Shown piece after piece: positions 12,105-26,801 of a stretch of 38,654 nt of DNA (within the stretch, counting starts at the first letter, position 1; every line of letters begins with the position of its first letter). Origin of the DNA: an uncultured bacterium (GTDB lineage: Bacteria > Desulfobacterota > Desulfobaccia > Desulfobaccales > 0-14-0-80-60-11); NCBI GenBank assembly GCA_937943575.1, contig CALEAV010000060.1:1-38654 (forward strand), given 5' to 3'. A program made the translations under genes and the position numbers. The notes beneath the pieces are model-generated. The model saw nothing but the letters and a program-made list of their open reading frames with translations, did no database searches and was not told the origin of the DNA.

Positions 12105-13187
12105 GGCGAAGCTCCGAGAGGGCCAGGTGATGCGCGTCGGCGAAATCCGCCGCGACCCGCACTCCCGCAGCCGTCAGCAGATGCCGGGCCATCCGGGCCC
12201 CCCGGCCTCCCAGCACCAGAACGGGCCGGGGCTGCAAGGCATTCAGGCGATGCACGGTGGCCAGGGCCTCCTCCAGGCGGGAGAGCATGGTCAGGGATAA
12301 AAAGACCGCCTCAGGTCTCAGGGCCAGGGCGGCCGCGGCGATTTCCTGGCCCGGCAGGCTCCGGCCCAGATTGCGCACCTGCCAGCCCCGCACCTCCAGA
12401 TAGACGCTCAGAGCCAGGGTCACCACTTGGTGCTCATCTCCCGGAGCGCACGACCCAAAGCCTGAGGGCCCTGACTTAAGGGCGGCCCCAAAAGGAGAGG
12501 GAGGCCGCTGAGCAGGCGGCTCAGGGTCTCCGTGGCCAGATGCTCCTGATAGATCTGGAGCTCATTATGTTCCCAGCGGCGGCCGATCTCCTCCATCACC
12601 CCCAGCAGCCGTGAGGCGATAAGCTCTTCCGCAGGGCAGCCCTGAGCCAGCCAGGCCGCAACCAGGTCCCGGGCCGCGGCCAGGTTGCCGGTGACGAGCA
12701 CCTTGAGGAGGCGGGCAACCTCCGGCGCGGAAAAAGGGGCAGCTGGCTGGGGCCGGTGCCGCAAGGTCCCCAGCTCGGACCGTAATTGCGCCAGCGGACC
12801 TGCCAGAAGGTGGCATTCCGGAGGTTTGATAACCCCGTGGATGGCCACCAGCCAACTGTCCAGGAGGAGGTTCGCGGCGGCGGCTCCGGGTCCCCGGGAG
12901 GTCAATAAGGAGAGAGACCAGCCGGCTTCCTCCTGCAAAGCCTTGAAGAGCTGGTAGCGGTAAACCACCTTCAAAAGGAGGCCGAATTCCCGGGCATACT
13001 CCAGGAGCTCCGCCTCCAGGGGGGCCAGATGCTTCTGAGTGCCAAAGCGCCAGCCCACCTCCAGGCGCCGGCGCACTATGGCCGCCAGGTGATCAAAATG
13101 CTCCTCAAAGAGGCGGGCGGCGGCTTCGAAGCCGGAGGTCACCGCTCCTTTAGGAAGAAGCCTATCCTTTTCCTCGACGTCCCCCAT
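12097..13187 (-). pseudogene. cobalamin-binding regulator/sensor, frameshifted between its two B12 subdomains
   Basis: The larger piece (13187 to 12420) has an unrecognised helical N-terminal half. Then comes a methionine-synthase-type helical cap (LLGVMEEIGRRWEHNELQIYQEHLATETLSRLL). It ends out of frame as LREMSTKW. The smaller piece (12426 to 12097) is the Rossmann B12-binding half (VTLALSVYLEVRGWQVRNLG onwards). Reading across a one-base shift at about 12440-12446 gives APGDEHQVVTLALS, as in CarH-like proteins, with the histidine that ligates cobalt. The usual following Gly is replaced. No MerR DNA-binding domain is present. The ATG at 13187 is preceded by GGGGGAG. It heads the exporter operon and may have regulated it. 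Confidence 0.72.
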
Positions 13188-13361
13188 CACTCCCCCATGG
13201 CGGTGGCCACGCCCAACATGGCGGCCCTGCCGGGTCGGTGGGGGCTCCCCCTGACCTCTGGGGAGAAACCCCAAAGCGTAGGGCTGAGGAGGCACTCCCC
13301 GCCCCTCAGGGCGGACAGGCCTCTGTAAGCGCCAGGAGCAAGGGAGGCCAGCCCCGCTGGA

Positions 13362-13482: not shown

Positions 13483-16341
13483 TCACCCCGTGCGGCCCCA
13501 CAAGAGGGCGGCGGGCAGGTGCTCCAGGAGCTGCTCTCCGGGGAGCTGCCGGCCCTCGGCCCCGGCAGCGGCGGTCAGGCGGCGGCCGCTCAGCACCTCC
13601 TCAAAGTGGGGCGGCGCCTCCGGGGGCAGGAGGACCACGGTGTGGCGCCAGGGGGCGCCCCCGGGATAGCGGCCTGCCTCCCCCAGCCCGGCGAAGAACC
13701 GCCCCGCCACCGCCACCACCCATTCCCCCCCGAGCCGGCGGGCAAAGGCCACCAGCCGCTCCGCCTGGGGTCCCTGGGCGGCCAGAGGCAGATAGTCCCC
13801 GTCCAGAAACAAGGAGAGGTGGGCCCGGCGAAAGTTCAGGCCCATGGCGGTGACGTACAACTTGATCTCCCCCCGGCGCCAGTTGGCCCATAGCTCAGGG
13901 AAGAGCGCCTCCTTTCCCCGGGCGGCCTTGCGGCGCAGCTCCCTCAGCATCTGCGTGCGGCGGCGGAAATCCACCGGCCGGCGGTTGTCGGGGTCCACCA
14001 GGCTGAAGTCCCAGAGCTCCGTGCCCTGGTAAAAATCGGGGATGCCGGGTGCGGCGATCTTGAGAAGCACCTGGGAGAGGGAGTTAAGGGCGCCGCACCA
14101 GGCGAGCAGACCCTGGAACTCCAGAAAATCCCGAAGGAATTCATTCTCAGGGGAGTCCTTCAGCAGCTCCCGGACAAAGGCCAGCAGGGCCCCTTCATAC
14201 TCCTCGTCCGGATGGGTCCAGTGACTGTGCACCTTGGCCTCCCGGAGGGCCTTGATGAAATAAGCGGCCAGGCGCTCCGGAAAGGCGGGGAGCTCCTCCG
14301 GCACAAGGGGCCAAGCCCCCAAAAGCGTCTGGTAGATAAAATACTCCTCGTTGGAGTCCGGCGCGGTGCGGTCCCGCACCTGCCGCCTTTTGTGCCGGTT
14401 GAGGGCCCGCCAGCGTCTGAGGCGCGCCTCCCACTCTTCGGGGATCTCCGACAGCGCCGTCAGGCGCAGCCGCACATCCTCGCTGCGCTTGGTGTCGTGG
14501 GTGGAGGTGGCGTTGAGGGTCAAGGGCCACATCGTCCGGCGGGCCTGGTTGAAGGCGTGGAAGGCCGCCGGGGTGACCGCCTCCATGGCGCTGCCCACCT
14601 CATTCAACCCCGCCAGAGGGTGATAGACATAGAGGGCGGTGTCCTCCACCCCCTTGGCGGTGATGGGCCCGGTGAACTGCTGCCAGCGCATGACGAACTG
14701 CAGCCACTCCCGCTTCTGGTCCTCGGGGAGATGCGGCGGAAAGTCCAGAAGCAGCACCCGGCGCAGGAAATTGAGGGCCAGGGGATTGAGGTCCGGGCGG
14801 CGCTGGCGGGCGGCGGCAAACCCCTGTTCCAGGCAGGTCTGGTCCGCCCCCCCCACCTCCAGGCTGCGGATGTAGGTGCGATATTGGGGCAGGCAGGCGA
14901 TGACCTCCTCCAGGGCCTCCCGGAGATCGCCCCGGGGGATGTCCCGGGCCCGCCGGTCCTGCTCGGCCAGGAGCCGCAACTGCTGCCCCAGGTTCTCCAG
15001 CTCCCCTCCGAAGAGGCTCTCCAGGACCAGTTTCTTTTTCTCGTAGGCCACCTCGGGCCAGGAGTCCGCCAGACCGGTGAAGCGGGCGTAGATGCGCCGG
15101 ATCTTGTCCAGACCGGGGGGATGCACGAACAGGCCGGTGACCCGGTCCAGGAAGTCGTAGCCGGTGGTGCCGGCCACCGGCCAGTCCGGCGGCAGCGTCT
15201 CCCCCGGGGCCAGGATCTTTTCCACCACCACGTAGAAGCGCTCCCGGCCCCGCTCCGGGACCAGGCTGCGCAGGTGTTCCGTCAGGCGCTGCAGATAGCC
15301 GGCGGGATCAAAGAGGCCGTCGAGGTGATCGATGCGCAGCCCGGCGATCTTCCCCTCCCGGATGAGGGAGAACAGCAGGGCATGACTGGCATCAAAGACC
15401 CGGGGGTCCTCCACCCTGAGCCCGATGAGGTCATTGACACTGAAAAACCGGCGATAATTGATGAAATCCAGGGCCACCTGCCACCACGCCAGGCGGTAGG
15501 CCTGCAGGCTGAGCAGCCGGTCCAGGAGATCGAAGCTGGCGGCCTCCCCCCGGATGCCGTTGAAGCGGGCCAGATTCTCGTCCACGAAACGGCGAATGGC
15601 GGGCTGGGTGAGATAATTCAGCCAGAGGCTTTTTTTCAGGATCTTCTTGGTGCGCTGGCGCTCCTGGAGCTGGCGGCGGCCGGTGGCGCTGCGGGGCGGC
15701 AGGTGCCGGCTTAAGGTGATGAGCCCCTGCAGGGCCAGCAGGGCAGGGTCCTCCGGCCCCAGCTCGGCCGTGAGCTCCTCCAGGCGGTGGCTGAGGATGA
15801 CGCTGTAGGTGCGGGGGTCCACGGGAAAAAAGAAGTCGTGATAATGCACCGCAAAGCCGCTCTCCTCCAGGGTGAGGACCAGCTCCTGGTTCTCCAGGGC
15901 CTGGTAATACGGGCTGCCCAGAATGGGGAGGAGCACCTTGCCGCTGAGAAAGCGCTGGGAGGGCTGCCAGTCGATGTCGAAAAACACCGCATAGGGGGAG
16001 GCGGGGCCGTCTTCCAGGACCTCCTGCCACCAGGGGTTGTCGGGGCTCAAGGCCATGTGGTTGGGGACGATATCCAGGATCAGCCCCATGCCCTTGGCCT
16101 TCAGGGCCCGGGTGAGGGCGGTGAAGGAGACCCGGGATCCCAGCTCCGGGTTGATCTCCAGGGGATTGGTGACGGAATAGCCGTGCAGACTCTGGCGACG
16201 GGCCTTGAAAAAGGGCGAGGCGTAGAGGTGGGAAATCCCCAGGTCGTGGAGGTAAGGGACCAGCGCCTGGGCGGCGATGAAGCGGAAGCCGTGGTGAAAC
16301 TGCAGGCGGTAGGTGGCGGCGGGGGGAGCCTCGGCGCTCAT
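13483..16341 (-). CDS. treY: maltooligosyl trehalose synthase
   Basis: GH13 enzyme (952 residues) that turns the reducing-end glucose of a maltodextrin into an alpha,alpha-1,1 linkage, making maltooligosyl trehalose for TreZ. Landmarks: TYRLQFHHGFRF and DLGISHLYASPFFKAR at the N-terminus, LDIVPNHMA, the nucleophile Asp in GLRIDHLDG (about residue 338), the acid Glu in VVVEKIL (about 372), THDTKRSEDVRLRL late in the protein, and PGIPDFYQGTE. These are typical of TreY, and the length is normal or slightly long. The frame is open 27 codons further upstream, but the ATG at 16341 overlaps the GH57 stop as ATGA and matches the family start. It is the last gene of the trehalose operon. No clear terminator follows. 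Confidence 0.93.
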   Translation of the reverse strand: MSAEAPPAATYRLQFHHGFRFIAAQALVPYLHDLGISHLYASPFFKARRQSLHGYSVTNPLEINPELGSRVSFTALTRALKAKGMGLILDIVPNHMALSPDNPWWQEVLEDGPASPYAVFFDIDWQPSQRFLSGKVLLPILGSPYYQALENQELVLTLEESGFAVHYHDFFFPVDPRTYSVILSHRLEELTAELGPEDPALLALQGLITLSRHLPPRSATGRRQLQERQRTKKILKKSLWLNYLTQPAIRRFVDENLARFNGIRGEAASFDLLDRLLSLQAYRLAWWQVALDFINYRRFFSVNDLIGLRVEDPRVFDASHALLFSLIREGKIAGLRIDHLDGLFDPAGYLQRLTEHLRSLVPERGRERFYVVVEKILAPGETLPPDWPVAGTTGYDFLDRVTGLFVHPPGLDKIRRIYARFTGLADSWPEVAYEKKKLVLESLFGGELENLGQQLRLLAEQDRRARDIPRGDLREALEEVIACLPQYRTYIRSLEVGGADQTCLEQGFAAARQRRPDLNPLALNFLRRVLLLDFPPHLPEDQKREWLQFVMRWQQFTGPITAKGVEDTALYVYHPLAGLNEVGSAMEAVTPAAFHAFNQARRTMWPLTLNATSTHDTKRSEDVRLRLTALSEIPEEWEARLRRWRALNRHKRRQVRDRTAPDSNEEYFIYQTLLGAWPLVPEELPAFPERLAAYFIKALREAKVHSHWTHPDEEYEGALLAFVRELLKDSPENEFLRDFLEFQGLLAWCGALNSLSQVLLKIAAPGIPDFYQGTELWDFSLVDPDNRRPVDFRRRTQMLRELRRKAARGKEALFPELWANWRRGEIKLYVTAMGLNFRRAHLSLFLDGDYLPLAAQGPQAERLVAFARRLGGEWVVAVAGRFFAGLGEAGRYPGGAPWRHTVVLLPPEAPPHFEEVLSGRRLTAAAGAEGRQLPGEQLLEHLPAALLWGRTG

Positions 16342-18794
16342 GGCTCCTCCGCCGCAGTCTGCTCCAGGGCCGCCAGGCTGAAGCCCAGCTCCTGGCCCAG
16401 ACTCAGGAAGCGGGCCGTCCATTCCACCGCCTGGAGATCGCCGTCCCGGCCTTGGCGCTGCTTTTCCGGGTAGACCTTGCCGGCCAGGTCATAGTAGAGG
16501 TTCTGGACCCGCCACAGGTTCACCTCAAAGGGGAGCTCCCGCATCAGTCGCACCGCCTCCTCCAGGGCCTGACAGAGCTCGGCGTCGTCGGGGTGCTCAT
16601 GCCAATACCCCGCCAGGTGTTCCAGGGCCTGGCGGGCGGCGAACTCCAGACGATGGCCCTCCAGGGGCACCTGCAGCCGCCGGGCCTCCTCCATCAGGGC
16701 CCGGATGTTGTCCAGGTCCAGGGGGGCCTCCTGAAAGGCCCGGGTGAGCTGGTAATTCAATATGAGCTCGGCGGTGACCTGAAAAGGCCGGGGCAGGGGC
16801 ACCCCCAGCTCCCGGTGGAAGCGCATCAGGGGGACCTGGTGGGTGAAGACCCGGCTGTAGAGCTCCCAGACCTCGGCGAGACTCAGGGCCAGCACCTGAT
16901 CCAGGATCTTGCGCTGTTCATCCCGGAACAGCGACCGCAGAGAGTAGGTGGATTCGCCGAAATGCCGGTCGATGCGGCGGATGGTTTCCGGAAAATCCGC
17001 CGAGGAGAAGGCCGCGGTGATCTCCTCCACCAGGCGGCCATAGGCCTCCTCCCCCTGGAAGGCCCGGACCCCGCCACACAGGTTGTGGTCGCCGAAGTGC
17101 AGCACCGCGTAGCTCACCCGGAGGGCCTCCCGGGTGATCTCCGAGGTGACCTGGATGCGGCCCAGGGCGAGTTTGGCCTTGCCCACTTCGGAGACCCGGT
17201 GATCCTCCCGGGACACGGTATAGCAGAAAATGCGGTCCCGGGGCTGATAGTCCTCAAAGAGGGAGCTCACGGCATAATGGGCGCCCACTTTCAGGAGGTC
17301 CAGCATGGCCGGGCGCACGAATTTCTCATAGATGCGGCGGCCGTCCTGGTGTTCCGGCAGGTTGCTCTTGGCGGCGGCCAGGCGGGTGAGGAAGGCCTCC
17401 TCCAGGTCGTCCCCGAAGAGTTCCTGGGCCAGCTGCACCACCCGGCCGGCATACTTGAGGACCTGCACCGTCTCCAGGCCGGAGAGCTCGGCAAAGAACC
17501 AGCCGCAGCTGGTGTACATCAACAGGGCGTGGCGCTGCAGCTCCAGGAGTTTCAGGATGGTGTGCGTCTCCTCGGGGGAGAGCTCCCGGCGGGCGTGGGC
17601 CGCCAGAAACTCCGCCAGACTTTCCGGGCTGCGATCCAGGATGATCCGGATATAATCGTCGCGGGCCGCCCAGGGGTCATGGAGCAGAGGCGCCGCGGCC
17701 GCCTCAAAGCGGGGGGCCAGGGTGTCCCGCAGCCAATCCAGGGCCTCCCGCAAGGGCGTCCGCCAGTCCTGCCGCCAGTGGGGCGGGCCGCCGTTGGTGC
17801 AGCCGCAATCCCGCCACCAGCGCTCCACCCCGTGGCTGCAGCTCCAGGAGGTGTTCTCGATGATTTCCACCTCCCAGGTGGGGGGGTGGCGCTCCAGATA
17901 CTCCCCGTAGTTGGTGAGGCGCACCCCCTCCTGGGCCTCCAGGTAATCGAGGGCGTAGGCCAGGGCCATGTCCCCGTGGTGATGATGGTGGCCGTAGGTC
18001 TCCCCGTCGGTGGCGATGTGCACCAGTTGCGGCCAGGGGCGCTCTTCGGAGAAGGCCCCCAGCAGCCGGGCCGCCAGGTCCTCCCCCCGTTGCAGAAGGT
18101 TCTCGAAGGCCACTGCCTGGGAGATGGGGCCGTCGTAAAAAAAGAGGGCCAGACTCCGACCCGAGGGCAGGCGCACCCGGTAGGCCATGGTGGGGTCGAT
18201 GCGGCCGCCGCTGACGTCGCGCCAGCCCTCCTTCCCCGGCGGTCTCACCCGGGCCGCCTGGTGGGGGGCCAGGATGGTGAACCGCAGACCAAGCTCCGCC
18301 AGGATGTCCAGGGTCTCCAGATCCACCGCAGTCTCCGGCAGCCACAGGCCTTCGGGCCGGCGGCCGAAGCGGTGCTCAAAGTCCCGGATGCCCCAGATCA
18401 CCTGGGTGTACTTGTCCCGCCGGTGGGCCAAAGGAAGGATGATGTGGTTGTAAGCCTGGGCCAGAGCCGAACCGTGGCCGGAGAAGCGCTTGCGGCTGAG
18501 GCGGTCCGCCCTCAGGATGGCCTCATAAATCTCCGGGGCCTTGGCGGCCAGCCAGGCCAGCAGGGTAGGGCCGAAGTTGAAGCTGATGGAGGCATAGTTG
18601 TTGGGGAGACGGACAATCCGGCCGTCGCCGTCCAGGATGCGGGAGACGGTGTTGGGGGCGTAGCATTCCGCCGCCACCCGCTCATTCCAGTCGTGGTAGG
18701 GGAAGGCGGAATCCTCCAGCTCCAGGTCCTCCAGCCAGGGATTCTCCCGGGGCGGCTGGTAGAAATGCCCGTGGATGCAGATGTAGCGCTCCAT
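16338..18794 (-). CDS. GH57 glycoside hydrolase with DUF3536
   Basis: 818-residue GH57 family protein acting on alpha-glucans (alpha-amylase, glucanotransferase or branching-type; exact activity unknown). GH57 regions in order: HGHFYQPPRENPW (residues 8-20), SGHGSALAQAYNHIILP, GLWLPETAVD near 150 (Glu as likely nucleophile), and ATDGETYGHHHHHGDMALAYA near 262 (Asp as likely acid/base, in a natural five-His run). A second half (about 400-818) matches the DUF3536 extension. The ATG at 18794 shares one base with the treZ stop (TGATG), and the stop overlaps treY (ATGA). Its position between treZ and treY, with no treX debranching enzyme nearby, suggests it supplies or trims linear maltodextrins. 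That role is inference. Confidence 0.85.
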   Translation of the reverse strand: MERYICIHGHFYQPPRENPWLEDLELEDSAFPYHDWNERVAAECYAPNTVSRILDGDGRIVRLPNNYASISFNFGPTLLAWLAAKAPEIYEAILRADRLSRKRFSGHGSALAQAYNHIILPLAHRRDKYTQVIWGIRDFEHRFGRRPEGLWLPETAVDLETLDILAELGLRFTILAPHQAARVRPPGKEGWRDVSGGRIDPTMAYRVRLPSGRSLALFFYDGPISQAVAFENLLQRGEDLAARLLGAFSEERPWPQLVHIATDGETYGHHHHHGDMALAYALDYLEAQEGVRLTNYGEYLERHPPTWEVEIIENTSWSCSHGVERWWRDCGCTNGGPPHWRQDWRTPLREALDWLRDTLAPRFEAAAAPLLHDPWAARDDYIRIILDRSPESLAEFLAAHARRELSPEETHTILKLLELQRHALLMYTSCGWFFAELSGLETVQVLKYAGRVVQLAQELFGDDLEEAFLTRLAAAKSNLPEHQDGRRIYEKFVRPAMLDLLKVGAHYAVSSLFEDYQPRDRIFCYTVSREDHRVSEVGKAKLALGRIQVTSEITREALRVSYAVLHFGDHNLCGGVRAFQGEEAYGRLVEEITAAFSSADFPETIRRIDRHFGESTYSLRSLFRDEQRKILDQVLALSLAEVWELYSRVFTHQVPLMRFHRELGVPLPRPFQVTAELILNYQLTRAFQEAPLDLDNIRALMEEARRLQVPLEGHRLEFAARQALEHLAGYWHEHPDDAELCQALEEAVRLMRELPFEVNLWRVQNLYYDLAGKVYPEKQRQGRDGDLQAVEWTARFLSLGQELGFSLAALEQTAAEEP

Positions 18795-20638
18795 CAGCCC
18801 TCCTCCGCCAGATAGACCGCCAGGGAGTGGGGCCTGAGACTGAGGCGCACCCGGCCGTCGCTCCGGAGCTCCCCGGGGGCCTGGGGCCCCGGCCCGCCCC
18901 AGGATGTGGCGGCGGATTCCAGCCTGAGCCGCCACACCCCCTCCGGCCAGGGCAGAAAGAGATCCAGGGGCGTGTCGCCGAAATGAAAGGCCAGCACCGC
19001 CTGCGCCGTCTCGCCCCAAAGGTGCACCACCAGGAGCTTTTCCTTCTCAAAGCCCATAACCTCCCGGGGCCCCTCCTGGAGGCGCATTCCCTGCCGCAGT
19101 TCCTGCCTGAGCACCAGGAGCTCCCGATAAAACTCCCATAACCGGCAGTGCCCCTCCTCCTCCTTCAGGGCGTGGTTGAGCTTGGCGGCGGCAAAGGTGG
19201 CGGGCTCTCCCGGGTCGGGGAGCTCCCCGGCGGCCGCCAGGGCGGGGTGCTCCTCCCGGCGGCCCCGGCGCACCGCCTCCAGGAGCTCCGGATCCCCGTG
19301 GCTGACGAAATAGGGAAAGGGGGCGGTCTCGCCGTACTCCTCCCCCATGAACAGCAAAGGGGTGAAGGGGGAGAGGAGCACCACCCCGGCGGCCAGCTTC
19401 AGGGCCTCCCGGGAGACCAGGGCGCTCAGGCGCTCCCCTTGGGGGCGGTTGCCCACCTGGTCGTGGTTCTGGGAGAAGACCACCAGCCGCGGCGGGGCCA
19501 CCTGGGCCACGGAGCTGCCATGGCGGCGCTGGCGGTAGGGGGAATACTCCCCGGTATAGACAAAGCCCTCCCGCCAGGCCTTGGCCAGGTGCGCCAGGCG
19601 GCCGTAGTCCTGGTAGTAGCCCCCCCTCTCCCCGGTCAGCAGGGTGTGCAGGGCGTGGTGGAAGTCCTCGTTCCAGTGGGCGTCCAGGCCCATCCCCCCC
19701 AGCTCCGGGGGCTGAAGCAGGCGGGCGTCGTTGAGGTCGCTTTCCGCCATGAGGTGGAAATGCCGCCGCCAGCGCCGCCGGGCCTGGCGCACCGCCGCCG
19801 CCAGCTCCAGGAGGAAGGGCCGGGGGGTGAGGTCCACGATGGCATGCAGGGCGTCCAGCCGCAGGGCGTCCACATGGAACTCCTCCCCCCAAAAAAGGGC
19901 ATTTTCAATAAAGAAGCGGCGCACCTGGTCGCTCCCGGGGCCGTCAAAATTCATGGCCGGCCCCCAGGGGGTGCGGTAGCGCTCAGTGAAGTAAGGCCCA
20001 AAGGCCCAGAGGTAATTGCCTTCCGGCCCCAGATGGTTGTAAACCACATCCAGAATTACCGCCACACCCCGGGCATGGCAGGCGTTCACCAGGTGTTTCA
20101 AACCCTCCGGGCCGCCGTAGCTGTCCTGCACCGCAAAGGGATAGACCCCGTCGTAGCCCCAGTTGCGCTCCCCCGGGAACTGGGCCACCGGCATGAGCTC
20201 CAGGGCGGTGACCCCCAGCCGCTTCAGCCCGTCCAGGTGGGGGATGACGGCCTCGAAGGTGCCCTCCGGGGTGAAGGCGCCCACGTGGAGTTCATAAATG
20301 ACATAGTCCTCCAGGGGCAGGCCGCCCCAGTGGCCGTCCTCCCAGGGGAAGGCGGGGTCCGTGACCTCCGAGGGGCCGTGCACCCCCTCCGGCTGGCGGC
20401 GGGAGGCCGGGTCGGGGAACTCCCGCCCGCCGTCCAGCCGGTAAAAGTAGCGGGCGCCGGGCTCCACCCCCGCCAGCACCCCAGCGAAATACCCCTGCCT
20501 CTGGGGGGCCAGGGGCAGGAGCCGCTCCCGGGGGGCCAGCAGGTGCACCTCCACCCTTTGGGCCAAAGGGGCCCAGACCACAAAGCGGCTGCGCCCCTCC
20601 CCCAGATAGGTGGCCCCCAAACGTGACGCCGCGGTCAC
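18794..20638 (-). CDS. treZ: malto-oligosyltrehalose trehalohydrolase
   Basis: GH13 enzyme (614 residues) that releases trehalose from maltooligosyl trehalose. An N-terminal early-set beta domain (RFVVWAPLAQRVEVHLL) is followed by the catalytic barrel. Barrel landmarks are DVVYNHLGPEGNYL, the nucleophile Asp in VDALRLDALHAI (about 259), the acid Glu in LMAESDLND (about 298), and the transition-state Asp in SQNHDQVGN (about 393). The C-terminal beta domain ends in LAVYLAEEG. The start is GTG at 20638 with AAGGGGGAG just upstream; the ATG two bases earlier is followed by a stop. Only nine bases separate it from treT, and it shares one base with the GH57 start. Confidence 0.93.
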   Translation of the reverse strand: MTAASRLGATYLGEGRSRFVVWAPLAQRVEVHLLAPRERLLPLAPQRQGYFAGVLAGVEPGARYFYRLDGGREFPDPASRRQPEGVHGPSEVTDPAFPWEDGHWGGLPLEDYVIYELHVGAFTPEGTFEAVIPHLDGLKRLGVTALELMPVAQFPGERNWGYDGVYPFAVQDSYGGPEGLKHLVNACHARGVAVILDVVYNHLGPEGNYLWAFGPYFTERYRTPWGPAMNFDGPGSDQVRRFFIENALFWGEEFHVDALRLDALHAIVDLTPRPFLLELAAAVRQARRRWRRHFHLMAESDLNDARLLQPPELGGMGLDAHWNEDFHHALHTLLTGERGGYYQDYGRLAHLAKAWREGFVYTGEYSPYRQRRHGSSVAQVAPPRLVVFSQNHDQVGNRPQGERLSALVSREALKLAAGVVLLSPFTPLLFMGEEYGETAPFPYFVSHGDPELLEAVRRGRREEHPALAAAGELPDPGEPATFAAAKLNHALKEEEGHCRLWEFYRELLVLRQELRQGMRLQEGPREVMGFEKEKLLVVHLWGETAQAVLAFHFGDTPLDLFLPWPEGVWRLRLESAATSWGGPGPQAPGELRSDGRVRLSLRPHSLAVYLAEEG

Positions 20639-20647
20639 ATCTCCCCC

Positions 20648-21871
20648 TTACAGTTCGAGGGTGAGCCTGCCGGGGTTCTCCGCCAGGGTGAGCAGGGTGA
20701 GATAGTCCCGGATGTTGCGGGTGATGAGAAAATGCTGGCGGACGAACTCCCGGGCCAGCCGGCCCATGCGCTGGGCCATCTCCGGCCGGTGCAGGAGATA
20801 GCGGATGCGGAAGGCGCAGCCCTCCGGAGAGTGCACCAGGAAGCCGGTATGGTAGTCCCGGATCTGGAGGACGATGCCCCCCACGGCGCCGCCGATGACC
20901 GGCTTGCCCTTCCACATGGCCTCGGTGACGGTAAGGCCGAAGCCCTCCCGGGTGGACTTCTGCACGATGATGTCCGCCGCCCGCTGCAGGGCGTTCACCT
21001 CGTGGTGGGCGTCCGGCGGCAGAAGCAGCACCTGGATGTCCGGCTCCCCCGCCGCCGCCTCCATGACCTCGGCGAAGATGCGGGGCCCTTCCGGATCGTC
21101 GGTGGCCTCGCCCCCGGCCAGGATCAGCTTGCAAGGCACGTGCTTGCGCACCATGCGGAAGGCCTGGATGACCCCCACCGGATCCTTGAAGGAGTCGAAC
21201 CGGGAGACCTGCAGCACAATGGGCCGGTCCCGCTCGACCCCCAGGCGGTTCAGTACCCGGTCGATCTCCTCCTGGGTGAGTTCCCGGTTCTTTTCGCTCA
21301 GAGGATCGATGGAGGGCCGGATGAGGTATTGGGGGTGCGGGAGGTTCTGGGCGAACTGCGCCATGGAAAAGACCGAGGCGTCGTAGCTGCTGACGATCTC
21401 CCGCAGGTATTTCCAGACCTTGAGGTTGGGGCGGGAGACGTCCACGTGGCAGCGCCAGATCCAGTGGCGGGCCCGCGGCCGCATCACCTTGATGAGCCAG
21501 GCCGGCTGAGGGTCGTGGACCAGCACATAGTCCGCCTCCCACAAGAATTTGCGGGCGTTTTCCTCGTTCACCTCCTCATAGTGCCGGAGCTGCGTCGGGG
21601 AGAGGCGGACGTCATGCCCCTGCAGGGCGTTGTGGAAGGCCTTGGTGACCTCGAAGAAGGTGGGATCCCCCTGGATCACCTCCCAGAAGGTGTTGAGACC
21701 CATCTGGTTGAGGAGGGGCACCGCCCGGGAGAGAATCTCCGCCACCCCGCCGCCGGTGCGGGTGGAGTTGATGTGCACGAAGCGCCGCTCCCGCAGGCGC
21801 TCCGCCAGCCGCTGGAGCTGGCCGATGACCTCCGGGCCCACAATGGGGGCGTAATCATTCAGGGTAACCAC
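20648..21871 (-). CDS. treT: trehalose glycosyltransferring synthase (GT4)
   Basis: 407-residue GT4 glycosyltransferase of the TreT family, which makes trehalose reversibly from an NDP-glucose donor and glucose. Two Rossmann domains: the N-terminal one opens with INSTRTGGGVAEIL and holds WRCHVDVSRPN. The C-terminal one has VLQVSRFDSFKDP, LAGG, and the donor-binding EGFGLTVTEAMWKGKPVIGG (Glu-x7-Glu at about 309 and 317). The start is GTG at 21871 with GGGGGA nearby; the reading frame overlaps the end of the DUF5752 gene by 17 bases. Having TreT beside TreY/TreZ gives two independent entries to trehalose in one transcript. The main uncertainty is donor specificity. Confidence 0.88.
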   Translation of the reverse strand: MVTLNDYAPIVGPEVIGQLQRLAERLRERRFVHINSTRTGGGVAEILSRAVPLLNQMGLNTFWEVIQGDPTFFEVTKAFHNALQGHDVRLSPTQLRHYEEVNEENARKFLWEADYVLVHDPQPAWLIKVMRPRARHWIWRCHVDVSRPNLKVWKYLREIVSSYDASVFSMAQFAQNLPHPQYLIRPSIDPLSEKNRELTQEEIDRVLNRLGVERDRPIVLQVSRFDSFKDPVGVIQAFRMVRKHVPCKLILAGGEATDDPEGPRIFAEVMEAAAGEPDIQVLLLPPDAHHEVNALQRAADIIVQKSTREGFGLTVTEAMWKGKPVIGGAVGGIVLQIRDYHTGFLVHSPEGCAFRIRYLLHRPEMAQRMGRLAREFVRQHFLITRNIRDYLTLLTLAENPGRLTLEL

Positions 21872-22559
21872 AGATCTCCCCCAGATGTTCCAGGATCAAT
21901 TGCAGGAGGGTGTCCCGCACTTCCTTCAGGGTGTAAAAATACAAGTCGATCTCCCGGATGGCCTGCACCAGCTCCGGGAGCCCGAAGTTGTTCTCGATCC
22001 AGAAGGAGAAGTCATCCACCCGCCGGTGGCCGTGGCGGCGGCGGGCCTCAAAGAAGTGGTAGTAGACCGAGTCCAGGCCCACCTTTCCCAGGGCGTGGCA
22101 GAATTCCCTCAGGGTGGTGGCCGGGATTTCGGAGCGGATGACCACCATGGAGGCCATGCAGAAGTGAAACTCAAAGCCGGGCCGGGCCCAGGGCACACTG
22201 GGCAGGTCCCATAAGTAATCTTCCAGGATGTCCACCATGGCCTGGCGCACCTGCTCCAGATCGTCGTATTCCAGGGGGTCGAAAGAGCTGAGCTTCTCCG
22301 CCAGCTTGACGTCCTGCAGGGCGGTGGCGGCCCAGAGGGCAAAGTCGTTGGGGTATTCCACCACCGGCTGGGTGACCGCCAGGCGGGATTGCAGGAGGTG
22401 GTAATGGAGCACCTCGGTGTCCACCTCCTTGAGGGCCTGGAGGAGCTCCCTTAAGTTCACCGCCTTGCGCCCCAGGGGCATGGTCATGAGAAAGCATTCC
22501 CGGAACCAAAAAGGGTCCTTGGCCGGCAGGTCGTAATCAAAGGGGACGGCGCGTTCCAC
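21855..22559 (-). CDS. DUF5752 family protein
   Basis: 234-residue soluble protein of a family (DUF5752) known to me mainly as a neighbour of trehalose/glucosyl-transfer genes; no biochemical function is established. It is rich in aromatic and acidic residues and appears to hold two related helical halves. WFRECFLMTMPLGRKAVNLRELLQALKEVDTEVLHYHLLQ near the start parallels FHFCMASMVVIRSEIPATTLREFCHALGKVGLDSVYYHFFEARR in the second half (same R/T-L-R-E-x-x-x-A-L-x-x-V-x-x-x-x-x-Y-H pattern, each cited in parts of the protein about 110 residues apart). It overlaps treT by 17 bases, which argues for a fixed partner relationship. No catalytic motif or signal peptide is visible. Confidence 0.7.
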   Translation of the reverse strand: MERAVPFDYDLPAKDPFWFRECFLMTMPLGRKAVNLRELLQALKEVDTEVLHYHLLQSRLAVTQPVVEYPNDFALWAATALQDVKLAEKLSSFDPLEYDDLEQVRQAMVDILEDYLWDLPSVPWARPGFEFHFCMASMVVIRSEIPATTLREFCHALGKVGLDSVYYHFFEARRRHGHRRVDDFSFWIENNFGLPELVQAIREIDLYFYTLKEVRDTLLQLILEHLGEICGYPE

Positions 22560-22598
22560 AGGGCATCTCCCCGCGGCACCCCCGCCCGGCGGCGCCGC

Positions 22599-23105
22599 TT
22601 AGCGTTCTCTCAGGACATGGTCGGAAATCACCTGAAACAGCTCGCTCTGGCGGATGAGCCCCACCACCCGGGCCCCCTGCATCACCGGCAGGCGGGGCAG
22701 CTTCTCCCGGACCATGACCAGGAGCGCCCGGGCCACCGAGTCCTCGGCCCGCACCGTGGCGGTGATGGGGCTCATGACCTCGCTCACCGGGGTGTTGGCC
22801 TTCTCCTCCACCCAGGCGCCGGTCAGATCCCTTTCCAGGCGCCTGACCAGGCTCTCCCAGGCCTCTCCGGCAACCCCCGGCAGCGGTGGGGTGATGCCGG
22901 CGAGCAGGTCGCCCAGGGACAGGACGCCCACGAGCTGGTATTTTTCATCAAAAACCAAAACCGAGCGGGGCTCGAAGGTGCCCGGGAATTTGATGGCGGC
23001 CTCCCGGATGATGGCCATGGCCTGCTTCAGGGTGAACCAGAAGGGGACATGGGGGTAATCCTCCAGGGGAATCATCAGCTCCGCCACTTTTTTCTGCAAG
23101 GGCAT
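22599..23105 (-). CDS. CBS-domain pair protein
   Basis: 168-residue protein made almost entirely of two CBS domains, which usually bind adenosine nucleotides and report energy state. The first half has a long insert (PFWFTLKQAMAIIREAAIKF, then SVLVFDEKYQLVGVLSLGDLLAGI). The second is canonical (VSEVMSPITATVRAEDSVARALLVM, LPRLPVMQGARVVGLIRQSELF). The ATG at 23105 has GGGAGG six bases upstream; the frame is open 77 codons further but that part is low-complexity and crosses the promoter region. It is the first gene of the trehalose operon, 39 bases before the DUF5752 gene, so it may tie trehalose synthesis to adenylate levels. That link is inference. Confidence 0.82.
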   Translation of the reverse strand: MPLQKKVAELMIPLEDYPHVPFWFTLKQAMAIIREAAIKFPGTFEPRSVLVFDEKYQLVGVLSLGDLLAGITPPLPGVAGEAWESLVRRLERDLTGAWVEEKANTPVSEVMSPITATVRAEDSVARALLVMVREKLPRLPVMQGARVVGLIRQSELFQVISDHVLRER

Positions 23106-24227: not shown

Positions 24228-26801
24228 ATGCCCGAACAACCGTATCTGAGCCGGGTCCAGCGGCCCAGCCGCTACCTGGGCCGGGAAGTGAATGTCATCC
24301 TCAAGGACCCCCGGGAGGTGGGCCTCAGGGTGGCCCTCCTCTTCCCCGACCTCTATGAGGTGGGGATGTCCCACCTGGGCCTGGGGATTCTCTACGACGT
24401 CCTCAACCGCCGCCCGGAGGTCTGGTGCGAGCGGGCCTTTGCCCCGGCTCCGGACCTGGAGGCGGAGCTGCGCCGCCAAGGCGGGCTTCTGGGCACCCTG
24501 GAATCCGGAGAGCCGTTGCGTCACTTCCCCCTGGTGGGGGTGAGCCTGCAGTATGAGCTCTGCTACACCAACGTGCTCACCCTGCTGGATCTGGGGGGCA
24601 TCCCGCTGCTGGCGGCGGCCCGGGGGCCCGCCGACCCGGTGGTGGTGGGCGGCGGCCCGGCGGCCTTCAACCCCGAACCCATGGCGCCCTTCTTTGACGC
24701 CTTCCTCCTGGGGGACGGGGAGGAGGCCGTCCTGGAGCTGGCCGACACTGTGGCCGTCTGGCGCAAGGCCCGGGGCAGCCGGGAGGAGCTGTGGCGGGCC
24801 CTGGAGGAGATTCCCGGCGTTTACGTCCCGGCCTTCTTTGTCCCGGCGTGGGATGAGGCGGGGCGTCTCCGGGAGGTCGCCCCCCGGGGCCGGCGGCACA
24901 CGGTGACCCGGCGTCTCCTGGACGACCTGAACCGCATCCCCTTGTCTCCGGCGGTGCTGGTGCCCACCTGCCCCATCGTGCATGACCGCCTGAGCGTGGA
25001 GATCGTCCGGGGCTGCAGCCGGGGCTGCCGCTATTGCCAGGCGGGGATCATCTACCGGCCGGTGCGGGAGCGGGAGCCGGAGGCGGTGAGAACCTGGGTG
25101 GAGGCGGCCCTGGCCGCCACCGGCTTTGAGGAGGTGTCCCTTCTGGCCTTGAGCCCCGGCGATTACGCCCCCCTGCCCTGGCTGCTGGCCCGCCTCATGG
25201 ACCGCCTGGAAGGGGCCAAAGTCTCCCTGTCCCTGCCGTCCCTCAGGGCCGACACCCTGGGACCCGAGCTCACCCGGCAGATTGGGCGGGTCCGGCGCAC
25301 CGGCCTCACCATCGCCCCGGAGGCGGGGAGCGAGCGCCTGCGGCAGGTGGTGAATAAGAATTTAAGCGAGGAGGCCATCCTCACCTCGGCCCGGGAGGTC
25401 TTCCGCCAGGGCTGGCGCCTGCTGAAGCTCTACTTTATGGTGGGCCTGCCCACGGAGACCCCGGCGGACCGGGAGGAGCTGGCCCGGCTGGTGCAGGCCA
25501 TCCGGGAGACGGCGCCCGAGGCCCGGCCGGAGCTGCACGTCAGCCTCTCCACCTTCATCCCCAAGGCCCACACGCCCTTCCAGTGGGAGCGTCAGCTCGG
25601 GCTCGCCGAGAGCCGGGCGGTACTGGCCGAGGTCAAGGATCGTTTGAGGAGCCGCCATGTGCAGGTGAAATGGAATTCCGCCGCCCAGAGCTGGCTGGAG
25701 GGGGTCTTCTCCCGGGGGGACCGCCGCCTGGCAGCCGTGCTCCTGGCCGCCTGGCGCCGGGGCTGCCGCCTGGATGCCTGGAGCGAGCACCTGCGTCTGG
25801 AGCCCTGGCAGGAGGCCTTTCGAGAGGCGGGGGTCAATCCGGAGGAGTATCTTAGAAAGCGGCGGCCCGATGAACTCCTGCCCTGGGCCCACCTGGACAG
25901 CGGCGTCAGCCCCGACTTTCTCCTGGAGGAGAGGGAGCGGGCCTACGGCGGGGTCTCCACCCCCGATTGCCGCCAGGCGGGCTGCCAGGGCTGCGGCGCC
26001 TGCCAGGACCCCAGCCGGGACCTGAGGCTGTATCCGGCCCCGTCGGCCGCGCCGGAGGCGGCTCCCCGGCCGGCGTCGGGGCCAGCCAAGGCAGGACCGC
26101 CGGTGCTCTACCGGCTCACCTATGCCAAATTGGGCCCGGCCCGCTGGCTCAGCCACCTGGAGCTCGTCAGCGCCGTCTACCGGGCCCTGCGCCGGGCGGC
26201 CCTGCCCCTGGCCTTTACCGGGGGGTATCACCCCCTCCCCAGGGTGGCCTTCCACGGCGCCCTGCCGGTGGGGGTGGAGAGCCTCTGCGAGTGCCTGGAT
26301 GTGGCCCTGACCCGGCCCTGTTCCCCGGAGATGCTGGTGGACCGGCTCAACGCCGTCCTGCCGGCGGGGCTGAGGGTGCTCACCGCAGCCCGGCTGGCCC
26401 CCGGGGCCAGGCCCCCTGAGTTTGCCGCCGCACGCTTTGAGGCGGAAAGCCCTCTCCCCGTCTTTGCCCCGGACAAGGCCGCCGCGTTTTTGGCCGAGGA
26501 AGTGGTTCCATACGTGAAGCGGCGGCCCGGCGGGCCCCCCCGGGAGGTGAATGTCCGCCCCCTGGTGGCCGCCCTGGAAGGGGACGACGCGCATCACCTG
26601 CACCTGACGGTGCTCCTGCCCGCCCGGGACAATCTCAAGGTGACGGAGATTCTGGCGGCGGTGTTCGGCCTGTCCCCGGAGGAGCTGGCGACGGTGCGGC
26701 TGGTGAAGACACAGGCGCTGGCGGCCCCGGGCGCTCCGGAGCGCCAGACCGCATTCGCGGCCGGCGGGGCCAGGGTGGCGGCCGGCCGCAAGCGGCGCTG
26801 A
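24228..26801 (+). CDS. B12-binding-type radical SAM protein fused to DUF2344 (TIGR03960-TIGR03936)
   Basis: 857-residue two-part protein of unknown reaction. Residues about 1-600 are a radical SAM protein with an N-terminal domain resembling a cobalamin-binding fold (VALLFPDLYEVGMSHLGLGILYDVLNRR). The 4Fe-4S motif is C263-x3-C267-x2-C270 (RGCSRGCRYCQAG). A second cysteine group, C581, C586, C589 and C592, ends this part and may bind another cluster or zinc. Residues from about 625 are the DUF2344 domain (YRLTYAKLGPARWLSHLELVS, then FTGGYHPLPRVAF). The gene lies 21 bases before ribonuclease G/E, a common pairing that hints at RNA modification or processing. No function is proven. Confidence 0.88.
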   Translation: MPEQPYLSRVQRPSRYLGREVNVILKDPREVGLRVALLFPDLYEVGMSHLGLGILYDVLNRRPEVWCERAFAPAPDLEAELRRQGGLLGTLESGEPLRHFPLVGVSLQYELCYTNVLTLLDLGGIPLLAAARGPADPVVVGGGPAAFNPEPMAPFFDAFLLGDGEEAVLELADTVAVWRKARGSREELWRALEEIPGVYVPAFFVPAWDEAGRLREVAPRGRRHTVTRRLLDDLNRIPLSPAVLVPTCPIVHDRLSVEIVRGCSRGCRYCQAGIIYRPVREREPEAVRTWVEAALAATGFEEVSLLALSPGDYAPLPWLLARLMDRLEGAKVSLSLPSLRADTLGPELTRQIGRVRRTGLTIAPEAGSERLRQVVNKNLSEEAILTSAREVFRQGWRLLKLYFMVGLPTETPADREELARLVQAIRETAPEARPELHVSLSTFIPKAHTPFQWERQLGLAESRAVLAEVKDRLRSRHVQVKWNSAAQSWLEGVFSRGDRRLAAVLLAAWRRGCRLDAWSEHLRLEPWQEAFREAGVNPEEYLRKRRPDELLPWAHLDSGVSPDFLLEERERAYGGVSTPDCRQAGCQGCGACQDPSRDLRLYPAPSAAPEAAPRPASGPAKAGPPVLYRLTYAKLGPARWLSHLELVSAVYRALRRAALPLAFTGGYHPLPRVAFHGALPVGVESLCECLDVALTRPCSPEMLVDRLNAVLPAGLRVLTAARLAPGARPPEFAAARFEAESPLPVFAPDKAAAFLAEEVVPYVKRRPGGPPREVNVRPLVAALEGDDAHHLHLTVLLPARDNLKVTEILAAVFGLSPEELATVRLVKTQALAAPGAPERQTAFAAGGARVAAGRKRR

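Follow-up and report, generated by a model that had tools for sequence, protein, structure and literature searches.

Trehalose Gene Clusters Described Previously and the Operon under Study

In Thermoproteus tenax, the msc-gt-tpsp operon encodes a protein of glycosyltransferase family 4 (GT4), a trehalose-6-phosphate (T6P) synthase/phosphatase (TPS/TPP), and an MscS-type channel; the GT4 protein activates the T6P synthase by forming a complex with it, and the authors considered the arrangement to occur in Thermoproteales only (PMC3634074). TreX-TreY-TreZ clusters encode TreY and TreZ together with one alpha-glucan-processing enzyme. In Pontibacter sp. SGAir0037, TreZ, an enzyme of glycoside hydrolase family 57 (GH57) featuring a DUF3536 domain and the motifs HGHFY and ETYGHH, and TreY are encoded together (PMC11206854). 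In Sulfolobus acidocaldarius, trehalose is formed by both TreT and TreYZ (PMC7688234). The present study deals with a related six-gene operon for the synthesis of trehalose, an important protectant under osmotic stress and desiccation, on the minus strand of contig CALEAV010000060.1 (assembly GCA_937943575.1; G000:C60) from an uncultured, sulfate-reducer-type bacterium of the order Desulfobaccales in the phylum Desulfobacterota. The window analyzed is this whole contig (38,654 bp), and the genome comprises 2.58 Mb on 62 contigs (95.8% complete).

The operon represents one local case of a more widespread arrangement, in which a DUF5752 protein, probably representing a dedicated partner of one clade of the trehalose glycosyltransferring synthase TreT, is encoded directly upstream of this enzyme. 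T. tenax OrfY (PDB 4CSO) belongs to the DUF5752 family, as does the window protein. The pair of DUF5752 and TreT, together with its relationship to OrfY, is the most valuable part of the analysis, and the mode of DUF5752 action is the least certain one. Compared with msc-gt-tpsp, the GT4 protein of the window is a DUF5752-paired TreT, and the second route is represented by TreYZ with a GH57 enzyme; loci combining the pair with Ots and MscS genes resemble the T. tenax operon, and such OtsBA and MscS variants were found in bacteria, that is, beyond the Thermoproteales. With respect to TreX-TreY-TreZ clusters, the window carries a GH57-DUF3536 gene instead of treX, as well as attached TreT and DUF5752 genes, whereas the exact TreX version (DUF5752-TreT-TreX-TreZ...TreY) was present in locus L156. 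The Pontibacter locus differs from the window in being a polysaccharide locus of the Bacteroidota that also carries TreS, GlgE, and GH77, and neither TreT nor DUF5752 was reported for it. In S. acidocaldarius, the routes reside at separate loci, judged by the gene numbers saci_1436 and saci_1827, and a third, GT4-type TPS/TPP route is present; DUF5752 is not mentioned in the passages of PMC7688234 that were consulted. The six genes of the window, in the order of transcription, are as follows:

22599..23105, minus strand: CBS-domain protein, 168 aa, first operon gene, lineage-specific (Pfam CBS, E 3.6e-12, one stretch)
21855..22559, minus strand: DUF5752 protein of the OrfY family, 234 aa, with an internal duplication; probable partner of TreT (Pfam PF19027, 229 bits, cut-off 23)
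20648..21871, minus strand: TreT, trehalose glycosyltransferring synthase (GT4) of the DUF5752-paired clade (Pfam TreT_GT1, 191 bits, cut-off 27)
18794..20638, minus strand: TreZ, malto-oligosyltrehalose trehalohydrolase of family GH13 (TIGR02402, 714.8 bits, cut-off 538.8)
16338..18794, minus strand: GH57-DUF3536 alpha-glucan-active enzyme, 818 aa (PF12055, 413 bits, cut-off 25; PF03065, 66 bits)
13483..16341, minus strand: TreY, malto-oligosyltrehalose synthase of family GH13 (TIGR02401, 936 bits, cut-off 498.65)

All six genes are tightly packed within positions 13483-23105. As read from the sequence, the CBS and DUF5752 genes are separated by 39 nt, the DUF5752 and TreT genes overlap by 17 nt, a 9-nt gap containing a GGGGGAG run lies between TreT and TreZ, and the TreZ/GH57 and GH57/TreY junctions overlap in TGATG and ATGA, respectively. 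Because the gaps and overlaps are so short, the genes appear to form one transcription unit. A promoter and terminator scan inside the operon returned matches near the expectation from shuffled sequence. Gene content, order, and tight coupling thus agree with the initial annotation of the locus, and so does its statement that two trehalose routes are joined in one operon: TreY and TreZ of the TreYZ pathway both exceeded the curated cut-offs of their family models, and TreT features the N-terminal domain PF21269 (191 bits) together with the GT4 domain PF00534 (94 bits). Solved TreT structures matched the window TreT over its full length (phmmer E 4e-127 to Thermoproteus TreT, 6ZJ4), and its score of 412 for the Thermococcales TreT equivalog NF041139 was below the cut-off of that model (775). 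By family assignment, therefore, the presence of TreY/TreZ, of TreT, of GH57 between TreZ and TreY, and of DUF5752 upstream of TreT and overlapping it is shown.

Pairing of DUF5752 with TreT

Genomes of 84,980 species were scanned, and the best 80 DUF5752 loci were retained, originating from about a dozen phyla. Judged by record titles, these comprised Deltaproteobacteria, Actinomycetota, Acidobacteria, KSB1, Eisenbacteria, Ignavibacteria, Bacteroidetes, Spirochaetes, Zixiibacteriota, Krumholzibacteriota, Calditrichota, Latescibacteria, and others. TreT was encoded directly downstream of DUF5752 in 79 of the best 80 loci, and the contig of the 80th stops just past the DUF5752 gene. A sample of 247 genomes of the phylum gave the same picture, a same-strand TreT gene following directly in 86 out of 89 DUF5752 matches; the remaining matches include two partial hits and one with a downstream flank that was not followed, and three weak, fragmentary DUF5752 hits located within long reading frames in other genomes were excluded. 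Within this sample, DUF5752 was found in 83 genomes, TreT in 95, DUF3536 in 101, and TreY above its cut-off in 45.

In a tree of 103 TreT sequences, the 82 DUF5752-paired ones grouped in a single clade (SH-like support 0.86), and the 21 unpaired ones fell outside it, a split that is provisional pending a wider sample, since almost all unpaired sequences came from one phylum and the paired ones were found via DUF5752. Residues differing between paired and unpaired TreTs include L19, E64, S166, F173, and F228 (numbering of that comparison). Several unpaired TreTs originate from genomes also holding a paired one. TreT as such needs no DUF5752, because some genomes, and the control Thermotoga maritima, hold TreT alone. 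Two sister species (L213, G001:C2; L214, G002:C46) encode a second TreT lacking DUF5752, and such a copy is absent from the window genome. Binding of DUF5752 to TreT would account for its constant association with a single TreT clade. A family that has had no assigned function would thereby gain a specific, testable partner across bacteria and possibly archaea.

The AlphaFold model of the window DUF5752 protein (mean predicted local distance difference test, pLDDT, 86.7) retrieved a single family from the PDB in a Foldseek search, namely T. tenax OrfY 4CSO (E 1.5e-15, target template modelling score up to 0.83), the crystal structure of which dates from 2014; the identity was confirmed by profile search (hmmsearch E 8.9e-35). 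The protein represents an internal duplication (hhalign probability of 99% between the N- and C-terminal halves), and conserved H, D, and W residues occur in the motifs YYHF and NDF/DDFxxW of both halves. Thermoproteus TreT 6ZJ4 groups with the paired clade and Pyrococcus horikoshii TreT with the unpaired sequences, both with weak support. In the literature searched, no function of OrfY or DUF5752 was found, nor any account of OrfY beyond one passing mention; the newness of the OrfY-TreT neighbourhood holds for that literature, most subscription journals lying outside it, and an earlier mention is possible.

Second Trehalose Routes beside the Pair

Among the best 80 loci, DUF5752-TreT is linked to OtsA and/or OtsB in 61, of which 11 additionally contain an MscS channel gene, a feature that fits a role in osmotic stress. 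The pair is joined to TreZ/TreY in 10 loci, two of which carry Ots genes as well, and to GlgA in four; in six it stands by itself, and one locus is truncated by a contig end. Accordingly, the two trehalose routes in one operon, at first sight an oddity, reflect a general rule, the pair being mostly chained to a second route. The four GlgA loci (L094, L122, L130, and L144; Spirochaetes and Bacteroidales), where GlgA follows directly after DUF5752-TreT, hint at a common pool of nucleoside diphosphate (NDP)-glucose. In L070 and L081, GH57-TreY, OtsB, and DUF5752-TreT are clustered (in L070 also with OtsA), placing three trehalose routes side by side.

Both TreT and DUF5752 were matched in the S. 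acidocaldarius control genome. In this organism, deletion of treT and of treY each cut trehalose by nearly half under salt, the contributions of the two routes being additive (PMC7688234). Because both deletions lower trehalose, simultaneous use of the routes fits better than an either/or switch.

GH57-DUF3536 Enzyme and the Absence of TreX

TreY genes of the phylum sample (45 in total) were accompanied by an adjacent GH57 gene in 24 cases and by a same-strand TreX gene within 8 kb in nine, but never by both (Fisher p 0.0003); moreover, TreX was present anywhere in the genome in 4 out of 24 cases with GH57 beside TreY, compared to 13 out of 21 for the others (p 0.0025), the genomes underlying both statistics being phylogenetically non-independent. 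GH57 thus occupies the place of TreX beside TreY. The absence of TreX, proposed in the initial annotation from the operon alone, extends to the whole genome: neither GlgX/TreX above cut-off nor a GH133 debranching domain was found in the 95.8% complete assembly, and GH13 proteins number only three, TreY and TreZ among them. Concerning the possibility, raised in that annotation as speaking against it, of treX and glycogen genes located elsewhere, treX was not found, whereas glycogen genes do reside on other contigs, with GlgA on C52, a GH57 branching enzyme carrying a BE_C domain on C4, and GH77 on C38.

A GH13 protein of the window genome (438 aa; G000:C38:84622-84864, L059:8551-9867, plus strand) matches hDGE_amylase and is conserved in relatives. 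Its gene is often located beside the GH77 gene, e.g., on G003:C6, G004:C32, and G012:C31, and the two products possibly represent a pared-down glucanotransferase or debranching pair.

The window GH57 enzyme features the motifs HGHFY, WLPE, and DGETYGHH, and its AlphaFold model (pLDDT 91.9) adopts the GH57 fold. Amylase, branching enzyme, glucanotransferase, and amylopullulanase scored alike as structural neighbours, the fold search thus not discriminating specificity; the best match was a maltose-forming amylase. By its DUF3536 domain, the motifs HGHFY and ETYGHH, and the locus type, the enzyme was likened to PoGH57, its closest characterised counterpart among those considered and the one DUF3536 GH57 enzyme with reported biochemistry, encoded in a TreZ/TreY locus; low 4-alpha-glucanotransferase or hydrolytic activity on alpha-1,4 chains at constant branch number was reported for it (PMC11206854). 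Furthermore, a GH133 debranching enzyme adjoins GH57 in L145 and L203, and in L136 a GH77 4-alpha-glucanotransferase is fused to TreY where GH57 would sit. These observations point to chain transfer or trimming over debranching, and a 4-alpha-glucanotransferase or chain-trimming function of the window enzyme is more likely than a debranching one. Since the genome lacks a known debranching enzyme, the GH57 enzyme may have a secondary debranching role.

A role as glycogen branching enzyme was rejected: the fingerprints of GH57 branching enzymes, HxHLP (CSR-I) and ELF(Y)GHW (CSR-IV) (PMC11206854), are replaced by HGHFY and ETYGHH, and a separate BE_C-bearing GH57 is encoded on C4. A second DUF3536-GH57 paralogue (838 aa; G000:C48:21808-23382, L060:7221-9734, minus strand) is located near proA/proB and falls outside the TreYZ-linked clade.

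Proposed Function and Alternative Explanations

On balance, the locus is best regarded, with some confidence, as an operon for stress-related trehalose accumulation, in which two routes supply trehalose in parallel and TreT has a protein partner of its own. TreY and TreZ would convert glycogen or maltodextrin to trehalose, and TreT would form trehalose from NDP-glucose and glucose. From the short dextrins that TreYZ leaves behind, the GH57 enzyme may re-form chains usable by TreY and release glucose, which could serve as the acceptor for TreT, so that glycogen carbon would pass to trehalose with little loss. DUF5752 would bind TreT and set its activity or direction. How the direct NDP-glucose route is controlled is relevant to stress biology as well as to enzymatic trehalose production. 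More tentatively, DUF5752/OrfY and its TreT clade may form a widespread two-protein synthase complex, which docks onto and controls the second route (OtsAB or TreYZ) and would be the bacterial equivalent of the GT-TPSP complex in T. tenax.

Several points weigh against the stress-trehalose reading. The depositors of 4CSO named OrfY a transcription factor, and the OrfY-like superfamily was termed an uncharacterised enzymatic domain (PMC5906684). The activity of PoGH57 is low and its natural role not established (PMC11206854), the GH77 elsewhere in the genome could provide glucanotransferase activity, and the lack of a recognised debranching enzyme in the genome leaves room for GH57 in that job. 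The clade of TreYZ-linked GH57s also includes members from genomes without TreY, and a strict binding of GH57 to TreYZ was therefore rejected.

As an alternative, the GH57 enzyme could be the missing debranching enzyme, amylopullulanase-like and cleaving alpha-1,6 bonds of glycogen for TreY in replacement of TreX. Its position beside TreY, a genome devoid of GlgX, GH133, or another debranching GH13 enzyme, and the amylopullulanases among its family members and structural neighbours are in favour, but PoGH57, which shares its motifs and type of locus, kept the branch number constant, GH133 coexists with GH57 elsewhere, GH77 can stand in for it, and the top structural match is not a pullulanase; hence, this explanation is considered unlikely. 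The proposal of the initial annotation that GH57 takes the role of TreX consequently stands for its position, since it alternates with TreX, and not for debranching. Following the label of 4CSO, DUF5752 might instead act as the transcription factor of the operon, and a regulator-like gene does stand first in the conserved pair. This is rather improbable, as no DNA-binding fold occurred among the confident Foldseek matches of the DUF5752 model, the coupling is to TreT alone while surrounding partners and order vary, and an overlap with the treT start codon would rather be expected for a protein partner.

Thermococcales possess reversible TreTs, and a reversed TreT could turn glycogen-derived trehalose into NDP-glucose and glucose for GlgA, a recycling loop in which DUF5752 would block a futile cycle. 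The GlgA gene directly after DUF5752-TreT in four loci would suit such a loop, but the Thermoproteus TreT, and not that of P. horikoshii, falls with the paired clade, albeit with weak support, T. tenax TreT is described as unidirectional (cited in PMC3634074), and the treT deletion in S. acidocaldarius lowers trehalose (PMC7688234), leaving reversal doubtful. Least credible is the model of the initial annotation, in which the CBS protein and DUF5752 would direct flux to either TreT or TreYZ according to energy state. The genes are adjacent in the window genome, and GVLSLGDL in the N-terminal half of the CBS protein looks, by eye, like a nucleotide-binding CBS motif. However, DUF5752 accompanies TreT regardless of TreYZ, most loci pairing TreT with OtsA/OtsB, so that the switch was rejected as a general role of DUF5752, and the CBS gene is confined to close relatives. 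What persists of that annotation's interpretation are the two routes, the absence of TreX, and GH57 in its place, whereas GH57 debranching and the DUF5752/CBS switch do not.

Distribution of the Gene Order, the CBS Gene, and Neighbouring Genes

The co-occurrence survey across genomes revealed gene-order conservation far beyond chance expectation. The full order CBS-DUF5752-TreT-TreZ-GH57-TreY was found in two sister species (L065/L162 and L161) besides the window, and in another genus (L066/L151) it runs up to the contig end. In L067, DUF5752-TreT and the start of TreZ are kept, with CBS further upstream and a 580-aa gene between CBS and DUF5752. The five-gene order without CBS occurs in L101 and L102 (Desulfobacter latus) and, with an inserted MscS gene, in L148, and in L119 and L145 the DUF5752-TreT and TreYZ modules are joined in reverse order. 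An operon unique to the window genome, which the initial annotation had named as contrary evidence, was thus rejected, as sister species share the six-gene and other Desulfobacterota the five-gene order. The two modules were joined repeatedly and in differing orders, which speaks for a functional link between them.

CBS orthologues upstream of DUF5752 were limited to L065/L162, L066/L151, L161, and L067, and the gene is absent from the corresponding operons in L101, L102, L119, and L148; being confined to close relatives, it does not belong to the operon core. Of the "CBS pair" of the initial annotation, Pfam reported one stretch above threshold, and the other, in the N-terminal half, is a putative one read by eye. 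The CBS protein is a local addition, perhaps with a nucleotide-sensing role.

Just downstream of the operon, a gene on the minus strand (12420-13295) encodes a weakly CarH-like protein with a B12-binding_2 domain. Divergent from the operon, the plus-strand gene at 24228-26801 encodes a B12-binding radical SAM protein of the TIGR03960 type that is fused with a TIGR03936/DUF2344 domain.

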